Shown here one piece after another: positions 48,968 to 63,387 of a DNA stretch of 64,000 bases (position 1 is the first letter of the stretch; each line of letters opens with the position of its first letter). The translations under genes were made by a program, and so were the position numbers. Location of the stretch: contig NZ_FNNP01000002.1 in the NCBI RefSeq assembly GCF_900106805.1, positions 248,001 to 312,000 on the forward strand. Direction: 5' to 3'. The notes under the pieces are model-generated. The model was not told the origin of the DNA. It saw only the letters and a program-made list of their open reading frames with translations, and ran no database searches. The stretch is from Ruegeria halocynthiae (GTDB lineage Bacteria; Pseudomonadota; Alphaproteobacteria; Rhodobacterales; Rhodobacteraceae).

Positions 48968-48979
48968 TTTTGATCAAAA
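48968..48979. promoter_or_regulatory. Putative GntR operator, copy 1
   Basis: Perfect 12-base palindrome TTTTGATCAAAA, 47 bases before the ligase start. It is identical to the copy at 49788 and shares the central ten bases with the copy at 63238. Confidence 0.65.
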
Positions 48980-49034
48980 AATGAAGATAGTCAATCTCCG
49001 GTTTTCCAAAAGCCGGATTTGATCGCTTTCAGCA

Positions 49035-49682
49035 TCACTTCAATGTCTGCGAAACGAACTTCATTCCTTGGCGAATATCCTCCTCAAAAGCCGACCTGAC
49101 AGCCTCAAAATCCCCCACCCGCAGGGCGACAGTTGCCGCGTGATGTTGATCCACCAAATTAGCGGTTCCAAAGCGACCACACCCGACACGCAGGGCCGGG
49201 CCGATCTGCAACCACAGCGATTCCGCAACGCGTAACAGCACTTCTGCATCTGCTGCTGCATAAAGCGTAAAATGAAATCGATAGTTTGCTTCGAGGTATT
49301 TTCGGATGTCACCGACTTCTATCGCGTGGTTGACTTCTTGATCCAGCCGCTCAAGCTCGGCCGCTACCCCGCTGACATTGTTTTTTGCGCCCATCATGGC
49401 AAGAACCGGCTCTACTGAGACTCTGACCAATTCGATTTGCTCCAGACGAGCATACGTCATGTCAGGAACTTCAACCCGACGGTTTTCGCGAACGACCAGA
49501 GCCCCTTCTGCTGTCAGGCGGCGAATCGCTTCGCGAATAGGAGTGACGCCAGACCCAATCGATTCGGCCAACCCATGTATGGTCAAAGGTTGCCCCGGGA
49601 CGAATTCACCGAAAAGCAGCTGCTCTCTCAATTGCGCATAAATTGTCTCATGCTCTGGCTTTTTGCCTACTAAGCGGTTCAT
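49035..49682 (-). CDS. GntR-family regulator, FadR/FCD type
   Basis: About 215 aa from ATG 49682, behind AGGGAGAG. The longer frame starts too far upstream of it. The N-terminal winged helix is YAQLREQLLFGEFVPGQPL and GVTPIREAIRRLTAEGALV. The C-terminal FCD all-helical ligand domain has conserved Asp/His positions in NHAIEVGDIRKYLEANYRFHF and DQHHAATVALRVGD. It lies between the ligase operon and the divergent transport operon, whose promoters both hold TTTTGATCAAAA, so it is the likely regulator, with a polyamine-derived ligand inferred. Confidence 0.87.
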   Translation of the reverse strand: MNRLVGKKPEHETIYAQLREQLLFGEFVPGQPLTIHGLAESIGSGVTPIREAIRRLTAEGALVVRENRRVEVPDMTYARLEQIELVRVSVEPVLAMMGAKNNVSGVAAELERLDQEVNHAIEVGDIRKYLEANYRFHFTLYAAADAEVLLRVAESLWLQIGPALRVGCGRFGTANLVDQHHAATVALRVGDFEAVRSAFEEDIRQGMKFVSQTLK

Positions 49683-49787
49683 CTCTCTCCCTTCATTGGT
49701 CAACTGGCCAACGGATCGTTCTTTTGAAGTTATAGCCAAGGGTCGCTAAACTATCAAATATGAGTGTAGGGATTGCAAAGAATCATT

Positions 49788-49799
49788 TTTTGATCAAAA
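49788..49799. promoter_or_regulatory. Putative GntR operator, copy 2
   Basis: Perfect palindrome TTTTGATCAAAA in the gntR-potF divergent region, 39 bases before the potF-like start. Identical to the copy at 48968. Confidence 0.65.
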
Positions 49800-49837
49800 G
49801 TGCGATCAGACTAAATAAAACCGAAAGGGAGGAACAT

Positions 49838-50926
49838 ATGCTTAACTTGAAATCAGGCGCGATGGTTTTTGCCGCTGCGATCGCAGCACAAACCGCTTGG
49901 GCCGACGAAGTACGCGTATACAACTGGTCTGACTACATCGATGAAGAGCTTCTGGCGAAGTTCGAAGCCGAAACCGGCATCAATCTGATTTATGACGTCT
50001 TCGACAGCAACGAAGTTCTGGAAACAAAGCTGCTGGCCGGCCAGTCGGGCTATGACGTTGTTGTGCCCTCGGGCACCTTCCTGCAGCGTCAGATCACTGC
50101 AGGCGTGTTCCAGCCGCTGGACAAATCCAAACTGTCGAACGCCGAGCATCTGTGGGACACAATCCAGGAGCGCACCACGCGCTATGACCCCGACAACGCC
50201 TATTCCGTGACCTACATGTGGGGCACCACCGGCATCGGTGCGATCCCTGAAAAAGTCCACGCGGTTCTGGGCGAAGACGCTCCGCTCGATTCGCTGGAAC
50301 TGGTTTTCAACCCCGAGAACATGGAAAAACTGGCCGAATGTGGCGTGTATTTTCTTGATGCCCCGGGTGAGATGATCCCTGCGGCGCTGAACTATATCGG
50401 CGAAAACCCCGATGCTCAGGATGTTGAGACCATCCAAAAGGCCGAGGCCGTTCTGTCTGCGGTTCGCCCGTATGTCAAAAAGTACAACAGCTCGGAATAC
50501 ATCACCGCGCTGGCAAATGGCGACATCTGTGTGGCCTTCGGCTGGTCTGGCGACGTTCTGCAGGCGCGTGACCGTGCGGCAGAAGCTGAGAACGGGATCG
50601 AAATCGTGTATAACGCGGTTCAGGAAGGCTCGCTAATGTGGTTCGACCAGATGGCTATCCCGGCAGACGCTCCAAACGTCGAAGCGGCTCATGCCTTCAT
50701 CGACTTCATCATCAATCCTGAAAATATCGCATCGGCTTCAAACTACGTCTACTTTGCAAACGGTGTGAACCCGGAGACGCAAGAACTTGAAGCAGACGTC
50801 ATTGGTGACACCGCGATTTATCCGGATGAAAACACAATGCAAAACCTGTATACTACCTCTCCTTGGGGGCCGAAAGCACAGCGTGCTGCGACCCGTCTTT
50901 GGACCAAGGTTAAATCGGGCACCTAA
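49838..50926 (+). CDS. Polyamine-type periplasmic substrate-binding protein (PotF-like)
   Basis: 362 aa from ATG 49838 behind AGGGAGG. The longer frame has no site. The signal peptide is SGAMVFAAAIAAQTAWA. The mature start VRVYNWSDYIDEELLAKFEA is the PotD/PotF hallmark. Other family motifs are SGYDVVVPSGTFLQRQ, YMWGTTGIGAIPEKV and CVAFGWSGD. It delivers putrescine, spermidine or a similar cation to the ABC transporter encoded just downstream. It is the first gene of a nine-gene plus-strand operon. Confidence 0.9.
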   Translation: MLNLKSGAMVFAAAIAAQTAWADEVRVYNWSDYIDEELLAKFEAETGINLIYDVFDSNEVLETKLLAGQSGYDVVVPSGTFLQRQITAGVFQPLDKSKLSNAEHLWDTIQERTTRYDPDNAYSVTYMWGTTGIGAIPEKVHAVLGEDAPLDSLELVFNPENMEKLAECGVYFLDAPGEMIPAALNYIGENPDAQDVETIQKAEAVLSAVRPYVKKYNSSEYITALANGDICVAFGWSGDVLQARDRAAEAENGIEIVYNAVQEGSLMWFDQMAIPADAPNVEAAHAFIDFIINPENIASASNYVYFANGVNPETQELEADVIGDTAIYPDENTMQNLYTTSPWGPKAQRAATRLWTKVKSGT

Positions 50927-50948
50927 GCTCTAACAATGCTGATCCAGG

Positions 50949-50979
50949 ACCGCCCGGCCAAATAATGTGGCCGGGCGGT
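50949..50979 (+). promoter_or_regulatory. Strong intercistronic hairpin between binding-protein and ATPase genes
   Basis: Perfect 12-base stem ACCGCCCGGCCA/TGGCCGGGCGGT with a 7-base loop, 22 bases after the potF-like stop and 20 before the ATPase start. No T-run follows. Such hairpins stabilise the upstream message so that the binding protein is made in excess. That is inference. Confidence 0.6.
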
Positions 50980-50999
50980 GTCCGTCAGGAGGGACAAAA

Positions 51000-52139
51000 A
51001 TGAACCAACCGGCAGTTTCATCTACCTTTGAACCTTGGACCGATCCGCAGGAAACACCGCTGATTTCCTTCAAGTCGGTGACCAAGAAGTTCGGTACATT
51101 TACCGCAATCAACGACGTAACTCTGGACATCTATCGTCAGGAGTTCTTTGCACTGCTAGGACCGTCGGGTTGCGGCAAGACTACCCTGATGCGGATGCTG
51201 GGCGGTTTTGAAACGCCCACCGAAGGCGTAATCACGATCGACGGCAAGGATATGGCCAACATCCCTCCGAACAAGCGCGCCGTAAACATGATGTTCCAAA
51301 GCTATGCGCTGTTCCCGCACCTTACGGTCCGGGAAAACGTCGCCTTTGGTCTGAAGCGTGATAATATGCCTAAGGCTCAAATCGAAGAGCGCGTTGAAGA
51401 AATGCTAAACCTTGTTCAGCTTCAAAATTTCTCGCAGCGCAAGCCCCATCAGATTTCCGGCGGCCAACGTCAGCGTGTTGCTCTGGCGCGTTCACTTGCC
51501 AAAGCCCCCAAGCTGCTTTTGCTGGACGAACCCCTTGGTGCGCTGGACAAGAAACTGCGTCAGGACACGCAGTTCGAGCTAATGGATATCCAGGAAAAGA
51601 CCGGCACCACCTTCGTGATCGTGACCCACGATCAGGAAGAGGCGATGACCGTAGCAAGCCGCATCGCAGTTATGGACCATGGCGAGTTAATCCAGGTCGA
51701 AACCCCCGGGCGTATCTACGAATCTCCGAATTCTGTCTATGTTGCTGACTTTATCGGCGACGTGAACCTGATCGAAGGCAACACCAAGCCACGTGGCGAC
51801 GGCAAAACCGAGCTGTTCTGGGCCGAAGGCCAGGCGCCGCTGGTGGCCGAATGCCCGCACGCTCCGGATGTCGAAGCGCGATGCACGTTCGCTATCCGCC
51901 CGGAGAAGGTGAACATCAGCAAAGAACGGCCGGATACTCAGATAAATGTCGTACAGGGCAAAATTCACGACATTGCCTATCTGGGCAATATCTCGACCTA
52001 CAAGGTCGAACTGCCCAACGGCACCATGGTCAAGGCGCAGACCGCCAACAACCGGCGTCTGGCACGCCGTGATCTGACATGGGACGACGACGTTTGGCTG
52101 TCCTGGACTGAAACAGCCGGCATCGTGCTGGACCAGTGA
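51000..52139 (+). CDS. Polyamine ABC transporter ATP-binding protein (PotA/PotG-like)
   Basis: 379 aa from ATG 51000 behind AGGAGGG. The longer frame starts in the hairpin. Walker A is GPSGCGKTTLM, Q-loop FQSYALFPHL, signature ISGGQRQRVAL, Walker B LLLLDEPLGALD, and His switch VTHDQEEAM. A C-terminal TOBE-like domain follows (about 290-370; TFAIRPEKVNI). It powers import with the two permeases that follow at 12-base and overlapping spacing. Cytosolic side of the inner membrane. Confidence 0.92.
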   Translation: MNQPAVSSTFEPWTDPQETPLISFKSVTKKFGTFTAINDVTLDIYRQEFFALLGPSGCGKTTLMRMLGGFETPTEGVITIDGKDMANIPPNKRAVNMMFQSYALFPHLTVRENVAFGLKRDNMPKAQIEERVEEMLNLVQLQNFSQRKPHQISGGQRQRVALARSLAKAPKLLLLDEPLGALDKKLRQDTQFELMDIQEKTGTTFVIVTHDQEEAMTVASRIAVMDHGELIQVETPGRIYESPNSVYVADFIGDVNLIEGNTKPRGDGKTELFWAEGQAPLVAECPHAPDVEARCTFAIRPEKVNISKERPDTQINVVQGKIHDIAYLGNISTYKVELPNGTMVKAQTANNRRLARRDLTWDDDVWLSWTETAGIVLDQ

Positions 52140-52150
52140 CGGGGTAAGCT

Positions 52151-53047
52151 ATGAACTTCAGGCGTTTTTTCCTCATCTCAGTGCCATATGTATGGCTGCT
52201 GATCTTGTTCCTGATCCCGTTCGGGATCGTTCTCAAGATCTCGCTGTCGGACACCGCACTGGCAATTCCACCCTACACTCCGACACTGGATCTGGCCGGT
52301 GGTTGGACATCAATCAAAGAGTTCTTTTCGCAACTCGATTTTGAAAACTTTGCCTTTCTGACAACTGACGATCTGTACTGGAAAAGCTATCTGTCCAGTC
52401 TCAAGATTGCATTTCTGGCTACTTTCTTGTGCCTTCTGGTCGGTTTTCCAATCGCCTACGGCATGGCAAACGCGCCCGACGAATGGCGCCCGACCCTAAT
52501 GATGCTGGTGATCCTGCCCTTCTGGACCAGCTTCCTGATCCGGGTTTATGCCTGGATGGGTATCCTCAGCCAGGAAGGACTGCTGAACCAGTTCCTGATT
52601 TGGCTGGGTGTCATTGGCGAGCCTCTGACAATCTTGAACACCAACGTGGCCGTCTATATCGGTATCGTCTATACTTACTGCCCGTTCATGATCCTGCCGA
52701 TATATTCGACGCTGGAAAAACTGGACGGATCCCTTTTGGAGGCCGGTGAAGACCTTGGCTGTTCCAGAACCACCGCTTTCTGGCTGATCACGGTACCGCT
52801 GTCGAAATCTGGCATCATTGCGGGCTGTTTCCTTGTCTTCATTCCAGCACTGGGGGAGTTCGTCATTCCGACACTTCTGGGCGGATCCGGAACGCTGATG
52901 ATCGGTAAGGTTCTGTTCGAAGAATTCTTCTCGAACCGTGACTGGCCGGTAGCAAGCGCAGTGGCCATCGTTCTGCTGCTGATCCTGATCATCCCGATCG
53001 TGCTGTACCAGCGCAACGAACAGAAAATGATGGAGGCCGAGCAATGA
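52151..53047 (+). CDS. Polyamine ABC transporter permease (PotB/PotH-like)
   Basis: 298 aa, six hydrophobic helices starting with PYVWLLILFLIPFGIVLKIS. The ABC-import permease EAA loop is EAGEDLGCSRTTAFWLITVP. It is the first of the permease pair and overlaps the second by 4 bases (ATGA). Substrate assigned by the PotF-like partner. Confidence 0.92.
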   Translation: MNFRRFFLISVPYVWLLILFLIPFGIVLKISLSDTALAIPPYTPTLDLAGGWTSIKEFFSQLDFENFAFLTTDDLYWKSYLSSLKIAFLATFLCLLVGFPIAYGMANAPDEWRPTLMMLVILPFWTSFLIRVYAWMGILSQEGLLNQFLIWLGVIGEPLTILNTNVAVYIGIVYTYCPFMILPIYSTLEKLDGSLLEAGEDLGCSRTTAFWLITVPLSKSGIIAGCFLVFIPALGEFVIPTLLGGSGTLMIGKVLFEEFFSNRDWPVASAVAIVLLLILIIPIVLYQRNEQKMMEAEQ

Positions 53048-53862
53048 GACGTTTGACATGGTTCAATACAACCTCTCTGACGCTTGGATTTGCGTTCCTG
53101 TATCTGCCGATGGTCATCCTGATCATCTACAGCTTCAACGAATCCCGGCTGGTGACGGTTTGGGGTGGGTTCTCGACCAAGTGGTACGGTGAACTGATGA
53201 AGAACGAGGCGTTTCTGGATGCGGCGGTGGTCACGTTGAAGGTTGCATTTGCATCCTCCATAGCGGCGACCGTTCTGGGCACGATGGCGGCTTATGTTCT
53301 GGTTCGCGGCGGGCGGTTTTTCGGCCGCACGCTGTTCTCGGGCATGATCTACGCACCGCTCGTGATGCCCGAAGTGATCACAGGTCTGTCGCTGTTGCTG
53401 CTGTTCATTTCGATCGGACTGGATCGAGGTATCATAACCATCGTTCTGGCGCACACCACATTCTCGATGTGTTACGTGTCAGTTGTGGTTAGCTCGCGTC
53501 TGGTCAGCTTTGACCGCTCGGTTGAAGAGGCCGCGCTGGATCTGGGCTGCACACCGTTCGATGCGTTCAGATCCGTGACACTGCCGATCATCGCGCCTGC
53601 GGTGATCTCGGGCTGGTTGCTGGCGCTGACGCTGTCGCTGGATGACCTGGTGATTTCGTCCTTCGTGGCAGGACCGTCGTCAACCACCTTGCCGATCAAA
53701 ATCTTCAGTTCGGTCCGTTTGGGCGTCAGCCCCGAGATCAACGCGCTGTCGACCATTCTGATCGGTTTGGTCACGATCGGCACAATCAGTGCCTCGCTCG
53801 CAAGCAAACGCGCTGTGAAAAAGCGCCAGCAGGAAGAACAAATGGCGGAGCAGGCGGCATGA
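53044..53862 (+). CDS. Polyamine ABC transporter permease (PotC/PotI-like)
   Basis: 272 aa, six helices. Typical PotC start with YLPMVILIIYSFNES. The EAA loop is EEAALDLGCTPFDAFRSVTL. Both neighbours are coupled by ATGA overlaps: the previous permease and the following ligase gene. The tail is charged (KKRQQEEQMAEQAA). Confidence 0.92.
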   Translation: MRRLTWFNTTSLTLGFAFLYLPMVILIIYSFNESRLVTVWGGFSTKWYGELMKNEAFLDAAVVTLKVAFASSIAATVLGTMAAYVLVRGGRFFGRTLFSGMIYAPLVMPEVITGLSLLLLFISIGLDRGIITIVLAHTTFSMCYVSVVVSSRLVSFDRSVEEAALDLGCTPFDAFRSVTLPIIAPAVISGWLLALTLSLDDLVISSFVAGPSSTTLPIKIFSSVRLGVSPEINALSTILIGLVTIGTISASLASKRAVKKRQQEEQMAEQAA

Positions 53863-55199
53863 GTTTTGCCAATGACTACGACGCCTATTGCCAGGCGCAC
53901 GGCGTCCCGGACCGCATCGAGTTGCTGCTATGCGACCTCAACGCGGTTCTTCGGGGCAAATGGGTGCCTGGCGACGGCATCGACAAAATAGAAAAAGGGG
54001 CAATTCGTCTGCCCCTTTCGACCTATGCGCCCGCAATCATGGGCAATGAGGTTGAAAATACCGGACTGGGTATCGAATTTGGCGATCCCGACGGCATTCT
54101 GATCCCGATTGAGGGCACGCTGCACCCTGCGCCATGGCTGGCCGGGAACGTGGCGCAGGTTCTGGTTGAAATGACGGACATGCAGGGCAACATCAGCCCG
54201 CAATCCCCGCGTGAGCTGCTGCGCTCGGTCTGGAACAGGTTCGATGACAAGGGTTGGCGCCCTGTCGTTGCGACCGAGCTTGAATTCTACATTCTTCGCC
54301 CGCGCAACGAACGGGACGATGCCCCCTGCCCGCCTTCCTTCAGCCCCGATGCACAAAACTATGACATGGAGCTATTGGCCCGGCGCGAGGCGATTTTGAA
54401 TGACATCCTGTCCGCCAGCGCGGCGCAGGGCCTGTCAACCGATACACTGATCGCTGAATACGGCCCCGGCCAGTTTGAGATCAATTTCCACCACACCGAT
54501 GACGTTCTGGCCGCGGCTGAGACGGCAATCTTGTTCCGACGTCTGGTTCGCGGCGTTGTAGCCAGCCATGGGTTCGAGGCCACCTTCATGGCCAAACCCT
54601 ATCTGGATCACCCCGGGAACGGTATGCATGTGCACGCCTCGGTCGTCGACAAAAGCGGCAAGAACATCTTCTCACCGACGGATGAAGAAGAGATTTCGCA
54701 GAACCTGCTTAACGCTGTTTCCGGTGTTCTGGGCAGTATGCGTGACCTTCAGGCAATATTCGCGCCGCATGGTAATTCATACCGCCGCTTCCGGCCCAAC
54801 AGCTTTGCGCCGGCCACGCCTGACTGGGGGCTGGACAACCGCGCGGCCTCGGTCCGGTTGCCCGAGACCAATGGGCCGGGCGCGCGTCTGGAACATCGCA
54901 TCAGCGGTGCGGATACCAACCCTTATCTGGCAATGGCGGCCATTCTGGGCGGCATGATGCACGGATTGGAAAACGCACCGGAATTGCAGCGCCCGCTGGA
55001 CGATCCCGATTGCGTACCGGCCAAACCGCTGGATCATGACTGGTATTCCGCCGTCGATCGATTTGCCTCTGCGCCTATAGCGCAGGACATATTTGGCGAT
55101 TACCGTGACCTCTATGCGACTGTTAAGCGCGATGAGATTGCGACAATTCAAGATCCCATTACCCCTGCGGAGTACACTTATTACCTCAGCCGGATGTGA
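53859..55199 (+). CDS. Second glutamine-synthetase-like gamma-glutamyl-amine ligase
   Basis: 446 aa, start overlapping the permease stop by 4 bases. The GS fold motifs are LLCDLNAVLRGKWVPGD (N-terminal), ATELEFYILRP, GPGQFEINFHH, GNGMHVHASVVD and NPYLAMAAILGGMMHG. It is a PuuA paralogue of the enzyme at 47545, with clear sequence differences, so the two may act on different amines (for example putrescine and a longer polyamine or ethanolamine-like compound). It works with the oxidase and amidohydrolase downstream. Confidence 0.87.
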   Translation: MSFANDYDAYCQAHGVPDRIELLLCDLNAVLRGKWVPGDGIDKIEKGAIRLPLSTYAPAIMGNEVENTGLGIEFGDPDGILIPIEGTLHPAPWLAGNVAQVLVEMTDMQGNISPQSPRELLRSVWNRFDDKGWRPVVATELEFYILRPRNERDDAPCPPSFSPDAQNYDMELLARREAILNDILSASAAQGLSTDTLIAEYGPGQFEINFHHTDDVLAAAETAILFRRLVRGVVASHGFEATFMAKPYLDHPGNGMHVHASVVDKSGKNIFSPTDEEEISQNLLNAVSGVLGSMRDLQAIFAPHGNSYRRFRPNSFAPATPDWGLDNRAASVRLPETNGPGARLEHRISGADTNPYLAMAAILGGMMHGLENAPELQRPLDDPDCVPAKPLDHDWYSAVDRFASAPIAQDIFGDYRDLYATVKRDEIATIQDPITPAEYTYYLSRM

Positions 55200-55201
55200 C
55201 G

Positions 55202-56533
55202 ATGCGATTGTTCGAAGATATGGCCTATGGGTCTGCCCCGATCGAGGACAGCTACTGGACCACCACGGTTCAGCGCCCGGACTATCCGGCGCTGACCGGG
55301 GCGGCCAAATGTGACACTGCGATTATCGGTGCTGGCTTTACCGGCCTGAACGCAGCGCTGGAATTGGCGCGCAGCGGACAGGATGTGGTCATTCTGGAAG
55401 CCGAACAACCGGGCTGGGGCGCCTCGGGTCGCAATGGCGGGTTCTGTTGCATTGGCGGATCAAAAACCGGATTGGCCGACCTGTCCCGTCGGTTCGGTCA
55501 GGATCACGCCTTGAACTATATGCGTGCCGAACGCGATGCGGTCGGATTTGTACAGGCACGCTTGGATGATTATGGGATCGAGGCCGATACCCACTCAAAA
55601 GGCGAAACCCGTCTGGCCCATTCGCAAAACGTTGCGGATGAGATGCAGGATGAAATCGCCGGATACCGGGATGTCTATGGCGCAGAGCCAGAGTTTCTGC
55701 CGCGCGAAGCGTTGGAGGATCACGGGCTGTTCAGCGCTGAGTTCTACGGCGCGTTGACCGCACCCATTGGCTTTGCTCTGAACCCGATGAAATATGCCAC
55801 CGGTCTTGCCCGCGAGGCGGCGGACGCAGGTGTGCGCATCCACGGCGGCAGCGCGGTGACTGAAATTGCACAATCAGGTGACGGTCAGCACCTGTTGAAA
55901 ACCGCTCATGGTGAATTGCGTGCGAAGAACCTGATCGTGGCCACCAACGGCTACAGTTCAGAAAACCTGCCCGCTTGGCTGGGTGGACGGTACATGCCGG
56001 TCCAATCCGGTATCATCGCCACCCGCCCGATGACTGACAATGAGCTGAAGGCGCAAGGCTTCACCAGTCGCCAGATGTGCTATGACAGCCGCAACCTGCT
56101 GCACTATTTCCGCCTGCTGCCAGACAATCGGATGCTGTTCGGACTGCGCGCTGCATCGCGCACCACCGAACATAGCGAGGCTGAGACCAAGGCCCGTGCG
56201 CGCGCCGATTTCGACCGCATGTTCCCGGCCTGGCAGCATGTTGAGACGGCACATTACTGGTCAGGACTTGTGTGCCTGTCTCGCAACCTTACGCCCTTTG
56301 CCGGGCCAATCCCCGGCATGGACCGGGCCTGGGCGGCGTTGTGCTATCACGGCAACGGCGTGGCTATGGGCAGCTATACTGGCGCGATGATCGCTGGGCA
56401 GATTTTGAATCAAGGGCCGCAAACCCCACATGTAATGACCGGACCCATGCGAAGATTTGAACTGGGACGCTGGCGGCGCGCAATGCTGCCGCTGATCTAC
56501 GCATGGTACGGGCTGCAAGATAGGAGAGCATAA
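55202..56533 (+). CDS. FAD-dependent oxidoreductase, DadA/PuuB type
   Basis: 443 aa from ATG 55202 (MRLFEDMAYGSAP), aligned with the start of the enzyme at 42766. A GTG six bases upstream overlaps the ligase stop. The FAD motif is AIIGAGFTGLNAALELARSG and the second motif is GWGASGRNGGF. C-terminal YFRLLPDNRMLFG and WAALCYHGNGVAM. It should oxidise the gamma-glutamylated amine made by the upstream ligase. Its last base is the first base of the amidotransferase start codon. Confidence 0.85.
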   Translation: MRLFEDMAYGSAPIEDSYWTTTVQRPDYPALTGAAKCDTAIIGAGFTGLNAALELARSGQDVVILEAEQPGWGASGRNGGFCCIGGSKTGLADLSRRFGQDHALNYMRAERDAVGFVQARLDDYGIEADTHSKGETRLAHSQNVADEMQDEIAGYRDVYGAEPEFLPREALEDHGLFSAEFYGALTAPIGFALNPMKYATGLAREAADAGVRIHGGSAVTEIAQSGDGQHLLKTAHGELRAKNLIVATNGYSSENLPAWLGGRYMPVQSGIIATRPMTDNELKAQGFTSRQMCYDSRNLLHYFRLLPDNRMLFGLRAASRTTEHSEAETKARARADFDRMFPAWQHVETAHYWSGLVCLSRNLTPFAGPIPGMDRAWAALCYHGNGVAMGSYTGAMIAGQILNQGPQTPHVMTGPMRRFELGRWRRAMLPLIYAWYGLQDRRA

Positions 56534-57264
56534 TGAGCGATCAGAAACTTCGCGTCGGTATTCTGGAAACCGGCCGCCCGCCCGAAGAGCTGGCCCCAAC
56601 CCACGGTGATTATCCCGGTATGGTGCAGCAGTGGCTGGGTAATCTGGATGCCGATTTTTCTTCCTATGCGGTGCTGGATGAGGAATTCCCGGCCAGCCCG
56701 AATGACGCTGACCTCTGGGTGATCACTGGATCGAAATTCGGAGCTTACGAAGATCACCCGTGGATCCCTCCGCTCGAAGAGTTCATTCGCGGCGCGCGTG
56801 ACAGTGGCAAGCTGATGTTCGGCATCTGCTTTGGCCACCAGATGATTGCACAGGCGCTGGGTGGTGTGGTGCGTAAATCCGACAAGGGTTGGGGTCTTGG
56901 CGTTCATGAATATCCAACCACCGGCAAATGGCCCGGCGAGTTGGGTGACGCCCCCGAAAAGATCGCCATTCAGGCTTACCATCAGGATCAGGTCGAAGAA
57001 AAACCCGAGGGCGCGGTAACAATCGCCTCGACAGATTTCTGCGAACATGGCGCGCTTTGGTACCCCGGCTTCGCCGTCACCGTGCAGGGCCACCCCGAAT
57101 TTGCCAAGCCTTATGCCAGCGATCTGCTTGAGAGCCGCCGAGGAACCGTTCTGAAAGACGAAGACGTGGATCAAGGTCAGCGCAACATGGCGATTGAGGA
57201 CAACCGTTCGATGGTTGCCAATCTGATACGAGAGTACCTGCTCAAGCAAAAAACACCGGCGTGA
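56533..57264 (+). CDS. Class I glutamine amidotransferase-like hydrolase (PuuD-like)
   Basis: 243 aa. The nucleophile elbow Cys is in MFGICFGHQM, and the His-Glu pair is in VQGHPEFAKPY, so the triad is complete. PuuD-type enzymes release glutamate from gamma-glutamyl-GABA, closing the glutamylation route. GuaA-type stand-alone domains look alike, but the operon (ligase, oxidase before it) favours PuuD. Cytosolic. Confidence 0.82.
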   Translation: MSDQKLRVGILETGRPPEELAPTHGDYPGMVQQWLGNLDADFSSYAVLDEEFPASPNDADLWVITGSKFGAYEDHPWIPPLEEFIRGARDSGKLMFGICFGHQMIAQALGGVVRKSDKGWGLGVHEYPTTGKWPGELGDAPEKIAIQAYHQDQVEEKPEGAVTIASTDFCEHGALWYPGFAVTVQGHPEFAKPYASDLLESRRGTVLKDEDVDQGQRNMAIEDNRSMVANLIREYLLKQKTPA

Positions 57265-57935
57265 TGGTGAAAGCGGGACCCGCCACCCAGCTGAGTCTCT
57301 ACGGCACCGAGGATTCACTTTATTTTTGGATTGCGCGGCTGGCGCTGCACGAACGCGGTCTGTCTTATGACATTATCGAGATGGACCCGTTTGATCCGCC
57401 CCTGCCCGATAACTATCTGGCCTTGCATCCGTTTGGACGCATACCGACGCTAGTCCATGATGATTTTGCCTTATATGAGGCCAGCGCCATCCTGCGCTAT
57501 GTAGATCAGGTATTCGACGGCCCCTCACTGGTACCTGCCGATGCCCGCGCAGCCGCCCGCATGTCACAGTTGATGTCTCTATTGGATGATTATGCAGTCA
57601 ATCCGATGATTGCCAAGGTCGTCTCGGAGCGCCTGTTTTCGCCGCTTGAAGGTGAGGAGCCGAACGAAGAAGCGATTGCCGAGGGACTTCGCGGGGCAGA
57701 TCGCGCGCTGGCGGCCGTGGAAGCGATTGTGAGCGAAGGGTTGATCCTGAATCAGCGGTCAGTCACGCTGGCTGATCTCTATCTGGGACCGTTCATAGGG
57801 TACTTTGTGATGCCCCCCGAAGGCGTAGTTATGCTGCGCAAGTTCCCGGCTCTGTCGCGCTGGTACGACTGGTTTGCAGCCCGCCCATCGGCGATGGCCG
57901 CCAATCCCGGCCCGCCTACGAACGAGGACAAATGA
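57264..57935 (+). CDS. Glutathione S-transferase-like protein
   Basis: About 223 aa, start ATG 57264 overlapping the amidotransferase stop (TGATG). A GTG three bases earlier is possible. The N-terminal thioredoxin-like domain is LSLYGTEDSLYFWIARLALH, with the cis-Pro in GRIPTLVHDD and the ESA-like YEASAILRYVD. The C-terminal domain is all-helical. It may detoxify reactive aldehydes or peroxide products of the amine oxidation. That role is inferred from context only. Confidence 0.85.
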   Translation: MVKAGPATQLSLYGTEDSLYFWIARLALHERGLSYDIIEMDPFDPPLPDNYLALHPFGRIPTLVHDDFALYEASAILRYVDQVFDGPSLVPADARAAARMSQLMSLLDDYAVNPMIAKVVSERLFSPLEGEEPNEEAIAEGLRGADRALAAVEAIVSEGLILNQRSVTLADLYLGPFIGYFVMPPEGVVMLRKFPALSRWYDWFAARPSAMAANPGPPTNEDK

Positions 57936-58672
57936 TGCAAAGACTGGCGCTGATGCTTACGGTGCTGGTCTTGTCCTGGGCGGCAAACCCGTCCCGCGCG
58001 CAGGTTTCCGTGGATATCGAATTGGTGATCGCCATCGACACCTCGGTCAGCGTTTCGGATCAGGAATTTGCGCTGCAATTGCTGGGTGTCGCAGACGCCA
58101 TGCGGGGACCTTTGGTGCAGGAGGCGATTACCTCAATGCCTGACGGCCTGGCCGTCACGGTCATGGAATGGAGTTACGGCCATCTGAATCGCCCAGTTCT
58201 TCCCTGGTTTCATCTGCGCACCGCAAACGACTCTTTCGCGTTTGCAAATCATGTCGAGCAAGTTCAACGCAATGGCGGCGGTCGCGCCACGGCAATTGGA
58301 GAGGCCATCACACGGGCCACCGAACTGCTGAACAACAACAATTTTGCAGGCCTTTTCCGAAAGATAGACATTTCCGGTGACGCCCGGAACAATTCTGGCG
58401 TGAACCCGCTGGTACCACGCCAAATAGCAATCGATCAGGGCATAACCATTAACGGGCTTGCCATCCTGACAAGCGACCGTGAGCTAGGTACCTACTACTC
58501 GACTTTCGTCGCCGGAGGGGCCGGTTCCTTCGTAATGGCCATCAGCAGCTCAGGCAGCATCCGCAACGCAATGCGTCGAAAACTGGAGCGCGAGTTGCAG
58601 TTTCAGTTGTCCCACACCAACCCGGATCCATTTGTGCAAAAGGCCAGGATGAGTTTCGACGAAGATCAGTGA
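57932..58672 (+). CDS. DUF1194 secreted protein with von Willebrand factor A-like fold
   Basis: 246 aa, signal peptide MLTVLVLSWAANPSRAQ. The vWA-like MIDAS residues are seen in VIAIDTSVSVSD, and a late Asp in ISGDARNNSG. The start ATG 57932 overlaps the GST stop. A second ATG at 57935 is spaced better from GAGG. The family is common in Rhodobacteraceae and its function unknown. Its end overlaps the convergent oxidoreductase end by 7 bases. Confidence 0.8.
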   Translation: MMQRLALMLTVLVLSWAANPSRAQVSVDIELVIAIDTSVSVSDQEFALQLLGVADAMRGPLVQEAITSMPDGLAVTVMEWSYGHLNRPVLPWFHLRTANDSFAFANHVEQVQRNGGGRATAIGEAITRATELLNNNNFAGLFRKIDISGDARNNSGVNPLVPRQIAIDQGITINGLAILTSDRELGTYYSTFVAGGAGSFVMAISSSGSIRNAMRRKLERELQFQLSHTNPDPFVQKARMSFDEDQ

Positions 58673-59979
58673 AGCTTAAGCTGCGGGCGCACCCGTTTCA
58701 TCGCTTGTGACAGAAGGCTGCGCACTGTCGCGCGCCAACTGCCCTGAACTGCGGATTCATGAGCATAGTGCAGGTAGCGATAGGCGCGACGGGCCAGCCA
58801 TCCCTCGATTGTCATGGTGCCCAAGGCCTTGCCCATCAACGAACCCACCGCCGAATACTTGCTGATCGCCACAAGCGATCCGCGATCAACATATCGAAAC
58901 TCTTCCAAAGGTTTGCCCTCAATCGCCCGCCGCAACTGCGCCTCCATAAACTCGGCCTGTTGCGAGGCAACCTGCGCGCGCGGCGGCAATGAGGTGCCTT
59001 TTTCGGGCCACAGGCATTCGGCACAATCACCAATGGCAAAAACGGGATCGCTTTTTGTGGTTTGCAGCGTCGGCTTGGTGCAAAGGCGGCCAAGCGAGCC
59101 GATATCGAAGGTGTTGAGGTCCTTTAAAATTGCGGGCGCCTTGATACCGGCAGCCCAGATCATCAACTCGGCCGGGATCATATCGCCACCTTTCAGGCGC
59201 ACACCATCGGCGGTGGCCTCTTCGACCATTGACGACAGGCGCAGATCGACATCAATGCTGCGCAGCTTTTGCGCAACCTTTTCCGACACCTGATCGGGCA
59301 GGGCTGCGACAAGGCGATCCGCCGCCTCGATCAATGTTATATTGACCGAAGACGGGTCACGCAGCTTGTCGATGCCGTTCCGGGCGAACTGCTCGGTCGC
59401 TTCGCGCAGCTCGGCCGCCAGTTCAACACCGGTGGCCCCGCCACCGATGATGCAAATGTTCAGCTTTGAAACACCATCACCAAGTGCGCCGGTTTCAAGG
59501 CGCAGACACAGGTTCAGCAGTTCGGCCTGCATCTTTTTGGCTTGCTTCGGAGTATCAAGGAACATGCAATGTTCGGATACGCCCTTGCAGCCGAAGTCAT
59601 TGGACCGACTGCCAATTGCCATGACCAGATAGTCAAAGTGCAGGATGCGCTGCGGCGCCAACAGCTTTTGCGCACTGTCGCGCACAGGGTCCAGCAGAAT
59701 AGTCTTGGCCTCAGAATCCAGCGCGCTGAGCCGCCCTAACCGGAAGTTATAGCCATTCCGGTTGGAATGTTCGAGAAAGCTGATCTCATCCTCGTTGCCC
59801 TTGGTCCCCGATGCAAATTCATGCAGCGAGGGTTTCCACATATGGGTCAGGTTTTCATCGACCAGGGTCACTTCGGCCAGCCCGCGACGGCCCAAAGACC
59901 GGCTGAGGCGGGTTGCGAGGTTCAGCCCTCCTGCACCTCCACCGACAATTACGATGTGGGGTTTAGTTTCCGGTCGCAT
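58666..59979 (-). CDS. Type II NADH dehydrogenase-like FAD oxidoreductase
   Basis: 437 aa. Two dinucleotide-binding folds: N-terminal FAD (IVIVGGGAGGLNLATRLS) and central NADH (ICIIGGGATGVELAAELREA). C-terminal FAD contact is VFAIGDCAEC. The tail (about 385-437) is amphipathic and basic, fitting membrane association. It passes electrons from NADH to quinone without ion pumping. It complements the Na+-NQR encoded earlier. It lies in the middle of the catabolic cluster, convergent with DUF1194. Confidence 0.85.
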   Translation of the reverse strand: MRPETKPHIVIVGGGAGGLNLATRLSRSLGRRGLAEVTLVDENLTHMWKPSLHEFASGTKGNEDEISFLEHSNRNGYNFRLGRLSALDSEAKTILLDPVRDSAQKLLAPQRILHFDYLVMAIGSRSNDFGCKGVSEHCMFLDTPKQAKKMQAELLNLCLRLETGALGDGVSKLNICIIGGGATGVELAAELREATEQFARNGIDKLRDPSSVNITLIEAADRLVAALPDQVSEKVAQKLRSIDVDLRLSSMVEEATADGVRLKGGDMIPAELMIWAAGIKAPAILKDLNTFDIGSLGRLCTKPTLQTTKSDPVFAIGDCAECLWPEKGTSLPPRAQVASQQAEFMEAQLRRAIEGKPLEEFRYVDRGSLVAISKYSAVGSLMGKALGTMTIEGWLARRAYRYLHYAHESAVQGSWRATVRSLLSQAMKRVRPQLKLH

Positions 59980-60039
59980 GGTGCCTCCAGCCGGCGGCTC
60001 TGTGGCCTCCGAGTTTCCTGACTTACATTTGTGTTGTGA

Positions 60040-60396
60040 TCAGGCGACCTCGAACGCCGCGTAGATCTTGCGAACCGGTGTCACCGATTCCCAGGTGCCG
60101 ACAAAACCGGCAGGGATCACGAACGCGTCGCCCTGATAGAAGGTCCACATTTCGCCATCCTGATTTTCGATGGTGGCAGTACCTTCAACCAGAATGCACA
60201 GCTCGTTTTCCGTGTAGTTTACGTTCAGCTTGCAGGCCTCACTGGACCACTGGCCGACATTGAACTGCTCGGTGCTGTCGGAATAGGCATTCCAAAGACG
60301 TGTCGCTGATGCACCCGAGATCAGTTTTTCGGCGGCGATATCGCTTTCGATCAGTGGAACGGAACGATCAACGCTTGTGATTTGGTTAGTGCTCAT
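60040..60396 (-). CDS. Cupin-domain protein (DUF861 type)
   Basis: 118 aa, small cupin barrel: ATRLWNAYSDSTEQFNVGQW, ELCILVEGTATIENQDGEMW, and FYQGDAFVIPAGFVGTWESV. It is the intact relative of the truncated cupin at 40109. It starts just past a terminator hairpin that follows the aldehyde dehydrogenase gene. Enzymatic role unknown, possibly handling of an amine-derived intermediate. Confidence 0.78.
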   Translation of the reverse strand: MSTNQITSVDRSVPLIESDIAAEKLISGASATRLWNAYSDSTEQFNVGQWSSEACKLNVNYTENELCILVEGTATIENQDGEMWTFYQGDAFVIPAGFVGTWESVTPVRKIYAAFEVA

Positions 60397-60411
60397 TGTC
60401 TTGACGACTCC

Positions 60412-60440
60412 AAAAAAGCGGCCCGGCCATTTGCCGGGCC
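60412..60440 (-). terminator. Rho-independent terminator after the aldehyde dehydrogenase gene
   Basis: Perfect 8-base GC stem GGCCCGGC/GCCGGGCC (60420-60427, 60433-60440). On the minus strand it is followed by a run of six T (60412-60417). It sits just before the cupin start codon, so it may act as an attenuator of the cupin. Confidence 0.8.
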
Positions 60441-60539
60441 AGTTGGGGAGAATGCTTGGAATTTCTGCGTTGCGTAAACGGCTTCCGTAGACACCAAGCT
60501 TATGAATTCAGGCTTCTGGACTGTTTTATCGAACTGTTG

Positions 60540-61922
60540 TTACAGCGCTTTTTTCAGGTGATACGATTTCGCTCGGGTCAGTGAGTTGTAGCCCAGCACC
60601 GACAGGGTGGTGCCGCGACCTGTGTTTTTGCACCCGGTCCAACAGACCGCCGGATCAAGGTAGTCACACCGATTCATGAACACGGTGCCGGTTTCGATCT
60701 GCGCGCCGATTTCTGCCGCACGATCCACGTCCTGGGTCCACAGGCTTGCAGTCAGGCCAAACTCACTGTCGTTCATCAACGCGATGGCTTCTTCGTCAGA
60801 TGACACCTTCATGATGCCGACAACCGGGCCAAAGCTCTCGTCGCGCATCACGCGCATGTCGTGGTTTACATCCACAAGAATCTGCGGTGCCAGATAGGCC
60901 CCGCCATCATCCGCAGGGAAGTTGGCCGGATCGATCAGCGCTTTGGCACCGTCAGCAAGGGCCTCTTTGATCTGGTCGCGCACTTCCTGCGCGAAACGTA
61001 CATTGGCCATAGGACCAATGGTCGAGCCATCCTCAAACGGGTTGCCCAGCTTCAGCTTGCTCACCTCTGCCACGGCTTTTTCGACGAATTCATCAAACTT
61101 GCTTTCGTGGACATAGACGCGTTCTATGCCGCAGCAACATTGACCGGCGTTAAAGAACGCACCATCCATCAGGGTGGCGACAGCCGCATCCACATTGGCG
61201 TCTTGCATCACATAGGCGGGATCCTTGCCGCCCAGTTCTGTCCCGACACCAGTGAAAGTACCCGCCGCCGCGCGTTCCATCGCCTGACCGCCGCCGACCG
61301 AGCCGGTGAAGTTGACGAAACCAAAATGACCTTCACCGATCAACTCGGACGTAGTGCCGTGGTCGAAGAACACATTCTGCAGAACGTCCGTCGGGAGACC
61401 AACCTCGTCGAACGCCTTAACAATCAGCTCACCCGCAATCAGGGTCTGGGCTGCGTGCTTCATGATGACCGAGTTACCGGCGATCAGGGCAGGCACCAGC
61501 GAGTTGATCGTGGTCAGGAACGGATAGTTCCAGGGTGCTACAATGAAAACAACTCCAACCGGCTCTTTCTCGATCCGACGTTCGAAATTGTCGCTGGCCT
61601 CAGCCACGATGGGCTTCAGCGCCTCTTCTGCGATGTCGGCCATATAGGTCGCTCGCTCGATACAGCCGTTGAATTCAAAGAACTGTGCCGTCGGACGGCC
61701 CATCATGTGTGCGACCTGCTCGGCCGCCTCATCGCGATGTGTGGCCAACTGATGAATGGCCTTCATCACCAGATCACGGCGCTCCGCCAGCGGGCGCGCA
61801 GCCCAGGCTTTGCCTGCTGTCTTGCTGCGCTTGATCCGATCCAGCGCCTCATCCTTGGACATCGCCTGACGGGTTACATAGATTTTGCCGTTGACCGGCG
61901 ATACGCATTTGATTTCAGCCAT
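60540..61922 (-). CDS. Aldehyde dehydrogenase family protein
   Basis: 460 aa. Catalytic Cys in NAGQCCCGIERV (several Cys side by side), Glu in GTELGGKDPAYV, NAD motif FTGSVGGGQAM and Asn in VAPWNYPFLT. Its sequence is rather different from the enzyme at 40908, nearer to the succinate-semialdehyde or GABA-aldehyde type. It follows the FAD oxidoreductase at 61944 by 21 bases on the minus strand, so it likely oxidises that enzyme's aldehyde product. A terminator ends the unit. Confidence 0.85.
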   Translation of the reverse strand: MAEIKCVSPVNGKIYVTRQAMSKDEALDRIKRSKTAGKAWAARPLAERRDLVMKAIHQLATHRDEAAEQVAHMMGRPTAQFFEFNGCIERATYMADIAEEALKPIVAEASDNFERRIEKEPVGVVFIVAPWNYPFLTTINSLVPALIAGNSVIMKHAAQTLIAGELIVKAFDEVGLPTDVLQNVFFDHGTTSELIGEGHFGFVNFTGSVGGGQAMERAAAGTFTGVGTELGGKDPAYVMQDANVDAAVATLMDGAFFNAGQCCCGIERVYVHESKFDEFVEKAVAEVSKLKLGNPFEDGSTIGPMANVRFAQEVRDQIKEALADGAKALIDPANFPADDGGAYLAPQILVDVNHDMRVMRDESFGPVVGIMKVSSDEEAIALMNDSEFGLTASLWTQDVDRAAEIGAQIETGTVFMNRCDYLDPAVCWTGCKNTGRGTTLSVLGYNSLTRAKSYHLKKAL

Positions 61923-61943
61923 TTATCAGGTCTCCTCTGCGGA

Positions 61944-63224
61944 TCAGCGCAGTTTTTCCTTGAGTTTGTAGTACATCATGCCCACCGCAATCGCCTGGCT
62001 TCCAAGCGAGCGGGTGAAGGGCAATTTCATGTGGCGAACATTTTCGTAGATCAGGAAATCGGCGGCGTCGCCGGTGATTGCCTCGGCCATGATCTCACCC
62101 ATGATATGCGTCAGAGCAATGCCGTGCCCGGAATAGCCTTGAACGTAGAACACGTTCTCGCTGATCTTGCCGACCTGCGGGATGCGGTTGATGACGATCC
62201 CATCGATACCTGCCCAGCTGAATTCGATATCAACACTTTTGAGGCGCGGGAAAGTCCGTTCCATCGCCGGGCGCAGCTCGGTCCCGATATCTGTGCTATC
62301 GCGGCCCGAATAGTTTGTCCCGCCGCCAAACATCAGCCGGTGGTCGGCAGTGCAGCGGTAATAATCCAACACGAACCGGCAGTCGTAGACGGCCAGATTG
62401 TATGGGTTTATCTGGCGCGCAACTTCCTCTCCCAATTGGGCAGTGGCCATGTTCGCCAACGACGCCGGGAACAATTTGCCTGACAATTTCTTCTGTTCAA
62501 GAAAATGATAAGCGTTACCGGCGATCAGTACGGTATCCGCCGTGACACGACCGTTATCAGTCACCAGAACCGGACGATCTCCGTGTTCGATCTTTGTCAC
62601 TTGCGAATTCTCGAACACTTTCGCACCCAGTGATTCAGCGGCACGCGCTTCGCCCACACACAGATCCATCGAATGCACGTGCATGTTGCGGCGATTCAAC
62701 AAGCCGCCGCAGTAGATTTCGGTTTCCAGATACTTGGGAATATCCTTGCCGTCGATCAGTTCAAGCTCATCGCCCATTCCACGATCTTGCGCTTCGTCGT
62801 GGATGGCTTTCAGCTCTTCCATATGCGCCGGTTTCATCGCGGTCTGGAGATGGCCGAAATTCAGATCACATTCGATGCCATATTTTTCGATCCTGTTGCG
62901 AATGATGTCATGGCCGCGCCAGCGCGTCTGCCACACAACGTCATCCGCCTCGGTTCCGACAGTACGCTTGAACTCGCGCGCCATAGCAACATCCCCGGAC
63001 AGGCTGCCGGTGATCTGCCCCCCGTTACGGCCTGTGGCACCCCAACCGATCTTCTTGGCCTCAAGCAAGGCAACCTTTTTTCCACGCTCGGCCAGCTCTA
63101 CAGCAGCGGCGACACCGCTGAAGCCGCCACCGATGATGGCAACATCTACATCCAGGTTCTCTGACAGCGTCGCAAACCCGTTCGTGTCTCGGGCCGTTGC
63201 TGCATAGTACGAGTTCGTGTGCAT
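61944..63224 (-). CDS. FAD-dependent oxidoreductase, PuuB-like
   Basis: 426 aa, start ATG 63224 with GAGGA upstream. FAD motif AIIGGGFSGVAAAVELAERG then GWGATGRNGGQITG. Late motifs RLMFGGGTNYSGRD and YSGHGIALTHI place it with the enzyme at 44820. A palindrome TTTGATCAAA at 63238 stands 14 bases upstream of its start codon, so it is likely in the GntR regulon. Couples with the downstream aldehyde dehydrogenase. Confidence 0.85.
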   Translation of the reverse strand: MHTNSYYAATARDTNGFATLSENLDVDVAIIGGGFSGVAAAVELAERGKKVALLEAKKIGWGATGRNGGQITGSLSGDVAMAREFKRTVGTEADDVVWQTRWRGHDIIRNRIEKYGIECDLNFGHLQTAMKPAHMEELKAIHDEAQDRGMGDELELIDGKDIPKYLETEIYCGGLLNRRNMHVHSMDLCVGEARAAESLGAKVFENSQVTKIEHGDRPVLVTDNGRVTADTVLIAGNAYHFLEQKKLSGKLFPASLANMATAQLGEEVARQINPYNLAVYDCRFVLDYYRCTADHRLMFGGGTNYSGRDSTDIGTELRPAMERTFPRLKSVDIEFSWAGIDGIVINRIPQVGKISENVFYVQGYSGHGIALTHIMGEIMAEAITGDAADFLIYENVRHMKLPFTRSLGSQAIAVGMMYYKLKEKLR

Positions 63225-63237
63225 CCGGAGTCCTCTT

Positions 63238-63247
63238 TTTGATCAAA
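63238..63247. promoter_or_regulatory. Putative GntR operator, copy 3 (10-base core)
   Basis: TTTGATCAAA, the core of the 12-base palindrome found at 48968 and 49788, 14 bases before the FAD oxidoreductase start. Close to the start codon, a position suited to repression. Confidence 0.55.
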
Positions 63248-63387
63248 TTTATTCCGAACGCAGTCACAGCGCAAGTATTCGTTTTTCCAGTCGTCAGTGC
63301 TTTGTTTTATATAACTATTATTTTCTTCATTGCTGCCAAACCAAAGCTGACAGATTCGGATAAAAATACATTTTGACAAAACATAAC

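Follow-up and report, generated by a model that had tools for sequence, protein, structure and literature searches.

The DNA examined here, called the window throughout, is a stretch of 64,000 nucleotides from the genome of Ruegeria halocynthiae (C25:248001-312000 of genome G000, which comprises 4,243,668 bases in 35 contigs). It carries a cluster of candidate genes for the uptake and breakdown of polyamines. On one strand there is a run of a glutamine-synthetase-like (GS-like) ligase, a class III aminotransferase and a FAD-dependent oxidoreductase of the DAO family, and on the other a potFGHI-type transporter run. Between the two lies a gene for a GntR-family regulator with an FCD domain, and on each side of this gene stands an exact copy of the 12-base palindrome TTTTGATCAAAA. 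Here we consider this palindrome as the predicted operator of the neighbouring regulator, together with the genes that might belong to its regulon.

The palindrome in the R. halocynthiae genome

An earlier note, made from the sequence of this DNA, had described a three-site regulon: exact 12-base palindromes before the ligase-aminotransferase operon and before potF, a 10-base core before a distant FAD oxidoreductase, and an FCD-type GntR gene between the first two sites, all sites flanking amine genes. Each of these elements was recovered (Table 1). The two exact copies of TTTTGATCAAAA are unexpected by chance, since 100 shuffles gave a mean of 0.01 copies and none had two. The core TTTGATCAAA before the oxidoreductase (63238-63247) is part of a wider match, TTTTGATCAAAT, in which 11 of 12 bases agree. 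In the whole genome TTTTGATCAAAA is found exactly three times, always upstream of amine genes, and the third copy (C25:312791) lies 791 bp beyond the window; a flavin amine oxidase gene follows it after 15 bp.

The core alone has 14 copies genome-wide, six with A/T on both sides (WTTTGATCAAAW) and eight without. The six WTTTGATCAAAW sites are located at C25:296968, 297788, 311237, 312791 and 316630 and at C28:219261; in window terms these are 48968, 49788 and 63237, two sites 791 and 4,630 bp beyond the end, and a sixth on another contig, so that five of the six fall in one 20 kb cluster. In the same order they precede the GS-like/aminotransferase/DAO run, potF, a DAO oxidoreductase, the flavin amine oxidase, an MmsA-type dehydrogenase and an aldehyde dehydrogenase, the start of the last being about 95 bp away. 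All six are followed, at a distance of 12-95 bp, by what is likely the start of an amine or aldehyde gene, starts having been chosen by ribosome-binding-site-like sequence (potF 49838, mmsA-like L004:8613). None of them falls in the body of a recognised gene, versus seven of the eight other core copies, which lie within open reading frames (ORFs) of 279-937 amino acids; the eighth (L208) is outside ORFs. The count of three was an undercount caused by the window edge: the predicted regulon is larger, with at least six strong sites in this genome. The genome-wide promoter search that the note had proposed shows that in this genome the palindrome is not scattered through non-promoter sequence, with the placement of three of the six sites depending on the start codon. 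Looser matching is uninformative, as up to two mismatches yield 225 sites genome-wide versus 86 for a reversed control pattern; of the one-mismatch sites outside the cluster 15 were inspected, and 11 of these lie in mechanically called ORFs.

Two further features of the site were considered and dropped. In this genome GATC or GATG stands exactly 12 bp off the palindrome at four of the six sites, and weaker half-sites 7-12 nt away are described for other GntR groups in the available part of PMC4494728. The spacing is not kept in relatives: among 181 of their sites GATC is not enriched (2 at -12, 1 at +12), and matches of at least seven bases, slightly raised at -12 and +12 (4 and 5), are found also at +11, +13 and +28 (3, 4 and 10), so that no such element is claimed. 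A reading of GATC as a Dam- or CcrM-type methylation site was set aside because it would not restrict the site to polyamine promoters.

Association of the palindrome with the GntR gene in relatives

Homologues of the window GntR were detected at E <= 1e-50 in 142 of 295 family genomes. To the 80 best of at least 554 relatives found by a contig scan with this protein belong mostly named Rhodobacteraceae genera, some being assigned only to Alphaproteobacteria or Proteobacteria; many are close relatives, and the 80 loci are not 80 independent events. Within 300 bp on either side of the GntR gene, TTTGATCAAA is present in 65 of the 80 loci, and when all 1,024 ten-base palindromes were ranked in those flanks the runner-up reached only 2/80. 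If up to one mismatch is allowed outside GATC and A/T flanks are required, the site is found in 78 loci versus 6 of 2,172 control tiles (600 bp, taken elsewhere in those loci), and with flanks of 400 bp in 79. The sole miss (L109) is one of two loci with no aminotransferase, GS-like or pot genes in view. These comparisons argue for a strong link of the palindrome to the GntR/FCD gene.

The presence or absence of the gene points in the same direction. From the listed places of 198 aminotransferase-bearing genomes 40 loci were hand-picked and 39 tested, a site being scored if it lay no more than 300 bp upstream of the aminotransferase or potF. One locus (L156; 36% GntR, no site) was excluded. 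Five of the 20 loci taken as having no GntR (L138, L140, L141, L145, L152) hold a GntR of 41-44% identity and were regrouped as GntR-bearing, the 40% line having been drawn after the sites of these loci were already seen. On this grouping the site is present in 25/25 loci with the GntR gene and in 0/14 without it (Fisher 6.6e-11), and with the window added, site and gene coincide in all 40 rows. In the 14 site-less genomes the family-wide search at E <= 1e-50 likewise gave no GntR match. L141 has its GntR gene downstream of the aminotransferase, and the site is nonetheless upstream of the aminotransferase. On the aminotransferase tree GntR presence changes at least three times on well-supported branches and nine times on the best tree.

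We therefore do not regard the site as a promoter element of these genes as such. On sequence evidence WTTTGATCAAAW very probably serves as operator for the GntR/FCD regulator next to it, which would form a local switch for polyamine uptake and breakdown, likely acting by repression. Our confidence rests mainly on the GntR-flank counts (65/80 and 79/80) and on the presence/absence result. The idea of predicting one regulator, its operator and its regulon from this DNA draws support from the same results and from the rarity and placement of the sites, with three amendments, namely that the regulon is larger, that two paralogues may act as regulators and that polyamines are only one of the candidate ligands. 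The regulator-operator pair recurs across many related bacteria.

It could be argued that the palindrome is the site of an unrelated factor or a promoter element, and that it accompanies polyamine genes by coincidence. LysR and TetR genes are also present in the region as possible candidates, and the motif includes GATC, which is read by other DNA-binding proteins. However, promoters of the same genes have no site where the GntR gene is missing, and the site is kept in all ten loci that have GntR and the aminotransferase with no pot genes in view, some of them cut by contig ends. We consider this explanation highly improbable.

A second GntR paralogue

The same genome codes for a second GntR protein on contig C19, 47% identical to the one in the window (L239 6711-7394, minus strand). 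Two sites, TATTGATCAAAT and ACTTGATCAAAT, lie upstream of its gene at 7379 and 7479, that is 100 bp apart, and both are one-mismatch variants; in L237 the two sites between GntR and potF are likewise 100 bp apart. Neither a pot nor an aminotransferase gene adjoins the C19 gene, which on one side is followed by an APH-family gene and then by FlgD and FliK-type genes. It is presumably a remnant of an ancestral polyamine locus, and it may cross-regulate.

This raises the question of whether the paralogue is the main reader of the sites, or whether both proteins read them, in which case the window GntR would not be the sole regulator. The C19 protein has a similar recognition region and upstream sites of its own, and many homologues just ~45-52% identical to the window GntR carry the motif. 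On the other hand, it is the window paralogue whose gene is located within the regulated cluster, with an exact site on either side, whereas the C19 copy has only variant sites and the FlgD and FliK-type neighbours mentioned above. We think a leading or shared role of the paralogue possible, yet rather doubtful.

Promoter architecture and mode of action

In 61 aligned aminotransferase promoters (consensus AATTTGATCATATTcT) 7 bp separate the end of a consensus TTGACA from the site, and ATTTGATCATATTcT lies over the -10 region. In our reading the right arm of the palindrome would double as the -10 region (TATTcT, 16 bp from TTGACA), which would account for the deviation of most aminotransferase-side copies to WTTTGATCATAT. 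Some rows of the alignment have one site before TTGACA and a second after it. The potF sites lie at a median of 41 bp before the start codon (n = 60), and in R. halocynthiae itself the sites of the oxidoreductase behind operator 3 (DAO4), the amine oxidase and mmsA lie 12-16 bp before the start codons. At operator 1 of the window a -35-like TTGACT (48989-48994, minus strand) begins 15 bp upstream of the site, and at operator 2 TTGCAA (49773-49778) also begins 15 bp upstream; no good -10 is visible at these two operators.

Since the site reaches from the spacer after TTGACA into the -10 region, the regulator is likely to act as a repressor; occlusion would be the simplest form, with AlkR as an earlier example (PMC12042122, available part). 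A GntR dimer bound to the palindrome would cover part of the -35/-10 spacer or the -10 region, and at sites 12-16 bp before a start codon it would sit in the leader. The operons would stay silent until the FCD domain takes up a pathway metabolite, and the regulon controlled in this way would span transport (potFGHI), transamination, glutamylation and aldehyde oxidation.

Activation, with binding near or upstream of -35, appears unlikely. In several relatives (L031, L037, L041, L050) TTGAC does follow the site, but in the consensus of the 61 promoters it precedes the site, which enters the -10 region. Activators, moreover, rarely sit 12-16 bp before start codons, where three of the own-genome sites are found. 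FCD activators such as CitO exist (PMC4746285, available part), whereas the operator of AlkR, a VanR-group FCD repressor, covers -10 regions according to the accessible portion of PMC12042122.

As a separate observation, the aminotransferase promoter of a Ruegeria pomeroyi locus (L124 10620-10760), TTGACACGATCAAATTTGATCATATTCT, has overlapping palindromes that fill the -35 to -10 spacer.

The wider predicted regulon

Each of 41 genus genomes has between 3 and 9 copies of WTTTGATCAAAW. The genus loci with sites that were fetched comprise the pot-GntR-aminotransferase locus, a glutamylation cluster (GS-like/glutamine amidotransferase/GS-like/DAO) carrying two sites ~1,428 bp apart, an aldehyde dehydrogenase and gabD. 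For the aldehyde dehydrogenase, sampled as 30 loci of the 40 genomes having the gene (our own genome among them), an exact site lies 80-101 bp upstream in 25 loci, or in 26 with one mismatch. For gabD (succinate-semialdehyde dehydrogenase; TIGR01780 above cut-off), sampled as 30 loci of 31 genomes and not matched in our own genome, the exact site is found 90-94 bp upstream in 15 loci and with one mismatch in 19. The in-gene control for both genes gave 0/240 tiles. Operator 3 is also found upstream of DAO4 homologues of 85% and 75% identity (L234, L066). If the MmsA site is a true target, the regulon could extend to the beta-alanine/malonate-semialdehyde end of spermidine breakdown.

Some weaker or isolated occurrences may be mentioned as well. 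In Thalassovita autumnalis (L066) two A/T-flanked palindromes 16 bp apart (6971, 6987) directly precede the DAO4 homologue. A YHS-domain gene in the cluster (L004 5067-5624, plus strand) has a weak one-mismatch site, TTTTGATCAACA, upstream at L004 4968-4979, and elsewhere in the genome TTTTGATCGAAA (L009 1501-1512) lies ~200 bp upstream of a second protein that is YHS-like by eye only.

Several observations weigh against the reading of WTTTGATCAAAW as the GntR operator. Three of the six sites in this genome (potF, DAO at 63237, MmsA) are covered by mechanical ORFs of at least 90 amino acids, depending on the start codon: the longest potF and mmsA-like readings begin before the site (the potF ORF 49760-50926 would take in operator 2), and unlikely ORFs overlap the 63237 and mmsA-upstream sites. 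In relatives, A/T-flanked sites lie inside ORFs at four of seven loci looked at (L224, L227, L228, L233), so that there the 12-mer by itself is no proof of function. Eleven of the 30 gabD loci have not even a one-mismatch site, and three of five DAO4 homologues (those 64-65% identical) have none. The amine-oxidase site was not conserved in either of the two homologues found, nor the mmsA site in any of the nine genus homologues found; these two targets therefore rest on this genome alone. The tree provides just three well-supported independent pairs, which all agree and are too few for significance in a sign test. Finally, WTTTGATCAAAW has no GT...AC pair and so departs from the published GntR/FCD operator form NyGTNxACNy (TKGT/ACMA boxes). 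According to the available part of PMC4494728, many but not all GntR motifs fit this form, BioR and NanR being among the exceptions; in view of these, WTTTGATCAAAW would be a variant operator and no bar to FCD membership by domain.

Genes of the cluster

The features of the locus are collected in Table 1. The gene set is that expected for polyamine uptake, glutamylation and transamination, as judged from sequence models, with several calls below NCBIfam cut-offs. The polyamine theme is anchored by potG, which scores above the TIGR01187 cut-off, and by the substrates assigned to potFGHI of R. pomeroyi (SPO3466-3469), namely cadaverine, putrescine and spermidine, from growth and drawdown of an SPO3469 mutant (PMC10130141, available part). 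In R. pomeroyi strain SZCCDBG043 the locus L124 has a matching order, potI-potH-potG-potF, GntR, aminotransferase, with the GntR gene surrounded by ATTTGATCAAGT, ATATGATCAAAA and ATTTGATCATAT; its pot genes are presumably those of R. pomeroyi DSS-3. In the window the pot run continues over 53859-58672, where the GS-like, DAO and glutamine amidotransferase genes are followed by genes for a GST-like protein and a DUF1194 protein.

Table 1. Predicted operators and genes at the locus (window positions unless a locus is named)
Feature	Position	Strand	Remarks
Operator 1, TTTTGATCAAAA (predicted)	48968..48979		46 bp before glutamine-synthetase-like gene start
Operator 2, TTTTGATCAAAA (predicted)	49788..49799		38 bp before chosen potF start, 105 bp before chosen GntR start
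Operator 3, TTTTGATCAAAT (predicted)	63237..63248		12 bp before FAD oxidoreductase (DAO) start
GntR-family regulator with FCD domain	49035..49682	-	ATG 49682 inferred; ORF open to TTG 49739
Glutamine-synthetase-like ligase (candidate gamma-glutamylputrescine synthetase)	47545..48921	-	Pfam Gln-synt_C; NCBIfam GGputSyn 189.7 bits, below cut-off 650
Class III aminotransferase (candidate polyamine:pyruvate transaminase)	46136..47530	-	NF005682 above cut-off; nearest solved chain 3hmu, E 1.4e-248
FAD-dependent oxidoreductase (DAO), last of GS-like/aminotransferase run	44820..46121	-	Pfam DAO
potF-like substrate-binding protein	49838..50926	+	NCBIfam PotF 417 bits, below cut-off 636
potG, potH, potI: polyamine ABC transporter ATPase and two permeases	50967..53862	+	potG TIGR01187 above cut-off; permeases Pfam BPD_transp_1
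Second GS-like gene, DAO oxidoreductase, class I glutamine amidotransferase (PuuD-like position)	53859..57264	+	Pfam Gln-synt_C, DAO, GATase
FAD-dependent oxidoreductase (DAO) behind operator 3	61944..63224	-	Best NCBIfam L-pipecolate oxidase AmaA and others, all shown below cut-off
Aldehyde dehydrogenase downstream of DAO gene	60540..61922	-	Succinic-semialdehyde/aminobutyraldehyde dehydrogenase models, below cut-off
MmsA-type dehydrogenase	L004 7111-8613	-	TIGR01722 above cut-off; site 8630, 16 bp before chosen start

The regulator and its candidate ligand

The protein encoded between operators 1 and 2 is assigned to the FCD (FadR) subfamily of the GntR superfamily by its N-terminal winged helix and C-terminal FCD domain, for which Pfam gives 54.3 bits (GntR, PF00392) and 51.9 bits (FCD, PF07729), both over the curated cut-offs. 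With NF008504 (PRK11414), which we take to represent the RspR/YdfH-type regulators of E. coli, it scores 100.9 bits and does not reach the cut-off of 225. A profile alignment read by eye suggests that the FCD metal positions correspond to the conserved His137 and His180 and, third, to Asp202, which are invariant in 22 sequences; in TM0439 the three-histidine site consists of His134, His174 and His196 (PMC4746285, available part). As the FCD metal sites in the available parts of PMC4746285 and PMC7674646 serve carboxylate ligands, gamma-aminobutyrate (GABA) is worth considering beside polyamines, which are only one candidate among others. Moreover, since 53 of the 80 GntR loci have the aminotransferase with no GS-like gene (the reverse holds in 5/80, one of which, L088, is cut by a contig end), the ligand is expected to be one that the transaminase and glutamylation routes share.

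In the accessible text of PMC4494728, Arg at position 28 of the helix-turn-helix (HTH) and Gly at 59 are linked to G/C at one TKGT/ACMA base, and Pro at 40 to the avoidance of G/C at that base. As presumably aligned to E. coli FadR, positions 28, 59 and 40 are occupied in the window family by Gln or His (sometimes Leu, Met or Glu), by Asn and by Pro, which may fit this pattern.

Implications

Polyamines are a source of both carbon and nitrogen for marine Rhodobacteraceae. The computational support for their control by this putative switch consists of the palindrome itself, how rare it is and where it is placed, the finding that in relatives it depends on the GntR gene being present, and the span of the regulon. 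From this we infer that the regulator binds the sites directly, that it represses rather than activates, and that both branches share an inducer, either a polyamine or a product of both such as GABA. With a candidate regulator and a precise operator in hand, the control of polyamine use becomes testable in a model strain for which an arrayed mutant library exists, and regulon members become predictable genome by genome, including dehydrogenases away from the cluster. In addition, loci with and without the GntR gene offer a natural series for how a regulon is built or dismantled.

A broader proposal, which we put forward tentatively and regard as conceivable rather than probable, is that this FCD repressor is the master regulator of polyamine pathways in Rhodobacteraceae. 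It would combine a compact operator free of GT...AC, fused with the -10 region, with a pocket of two His and one Asp, and would sense a metabolite common to the transaminase and glutamylation routes, while the clusters would swap enzymes and keep the switch.

Comparison with known systems

No description of this regulator or motif was found in open-literature listings, which do not cover RegPrecise and most subscription journals, and the available parts of PMC4494728, PMC5320631 and PMC5343134 contain no description of the regulator. The FCD regulator and its regulon are apparently undescribed so far. The VanR protein of Caulobacter, which controls vanillate genes, belongs to the FCD group. 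Its operator VanO, ATTGGATCCAAT, is a 12-bp palindrome centred on GATC (PMC7970624, available part), and the corresponding sequence here, ATTTGATCAAAT, differs by one base per half-site. The VanO form TTGGATCCAA was not encountered in the one-mismatch scan, all listed variants having T in place of G with an otherwise identical layout; the likeness concerns the operators.

AlkR of Pseudomonas aeruginosa, from the VanR group of FCD repressors, is close in operator placement: its operator ATTGTCAGACAAT lies -27 to -40 before the start codon (PMC12042122, available part). AlkR differs in that it controls alkane oxidation and responds to acyl-CoA, and its operator has the GT...AC pair that is missing from WTTTGATCAAAW. 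The closest solved structure by sequence profile is McbR/YncC of E. coli (PDB 4p9f; E 4.9e-34, profile positions 11-207 of 210). McbR, however, has Arg where the window-family profile has the FCD metal-ligand His 137, and its motif is ATATAT according to the available part of PMC13343897. A regulon of similar kind, with genes for putrescine uptake, glutamylation and GABA, is controlled by PuuR of E. coli and by GabR/MocR (PMC5320631, available part). The protein families are nevertheless different, as PuuR is an XRE protein and GabR a MocR protein with an aminotransferase-like domain, whereas the window protein combines GntR with FCD.

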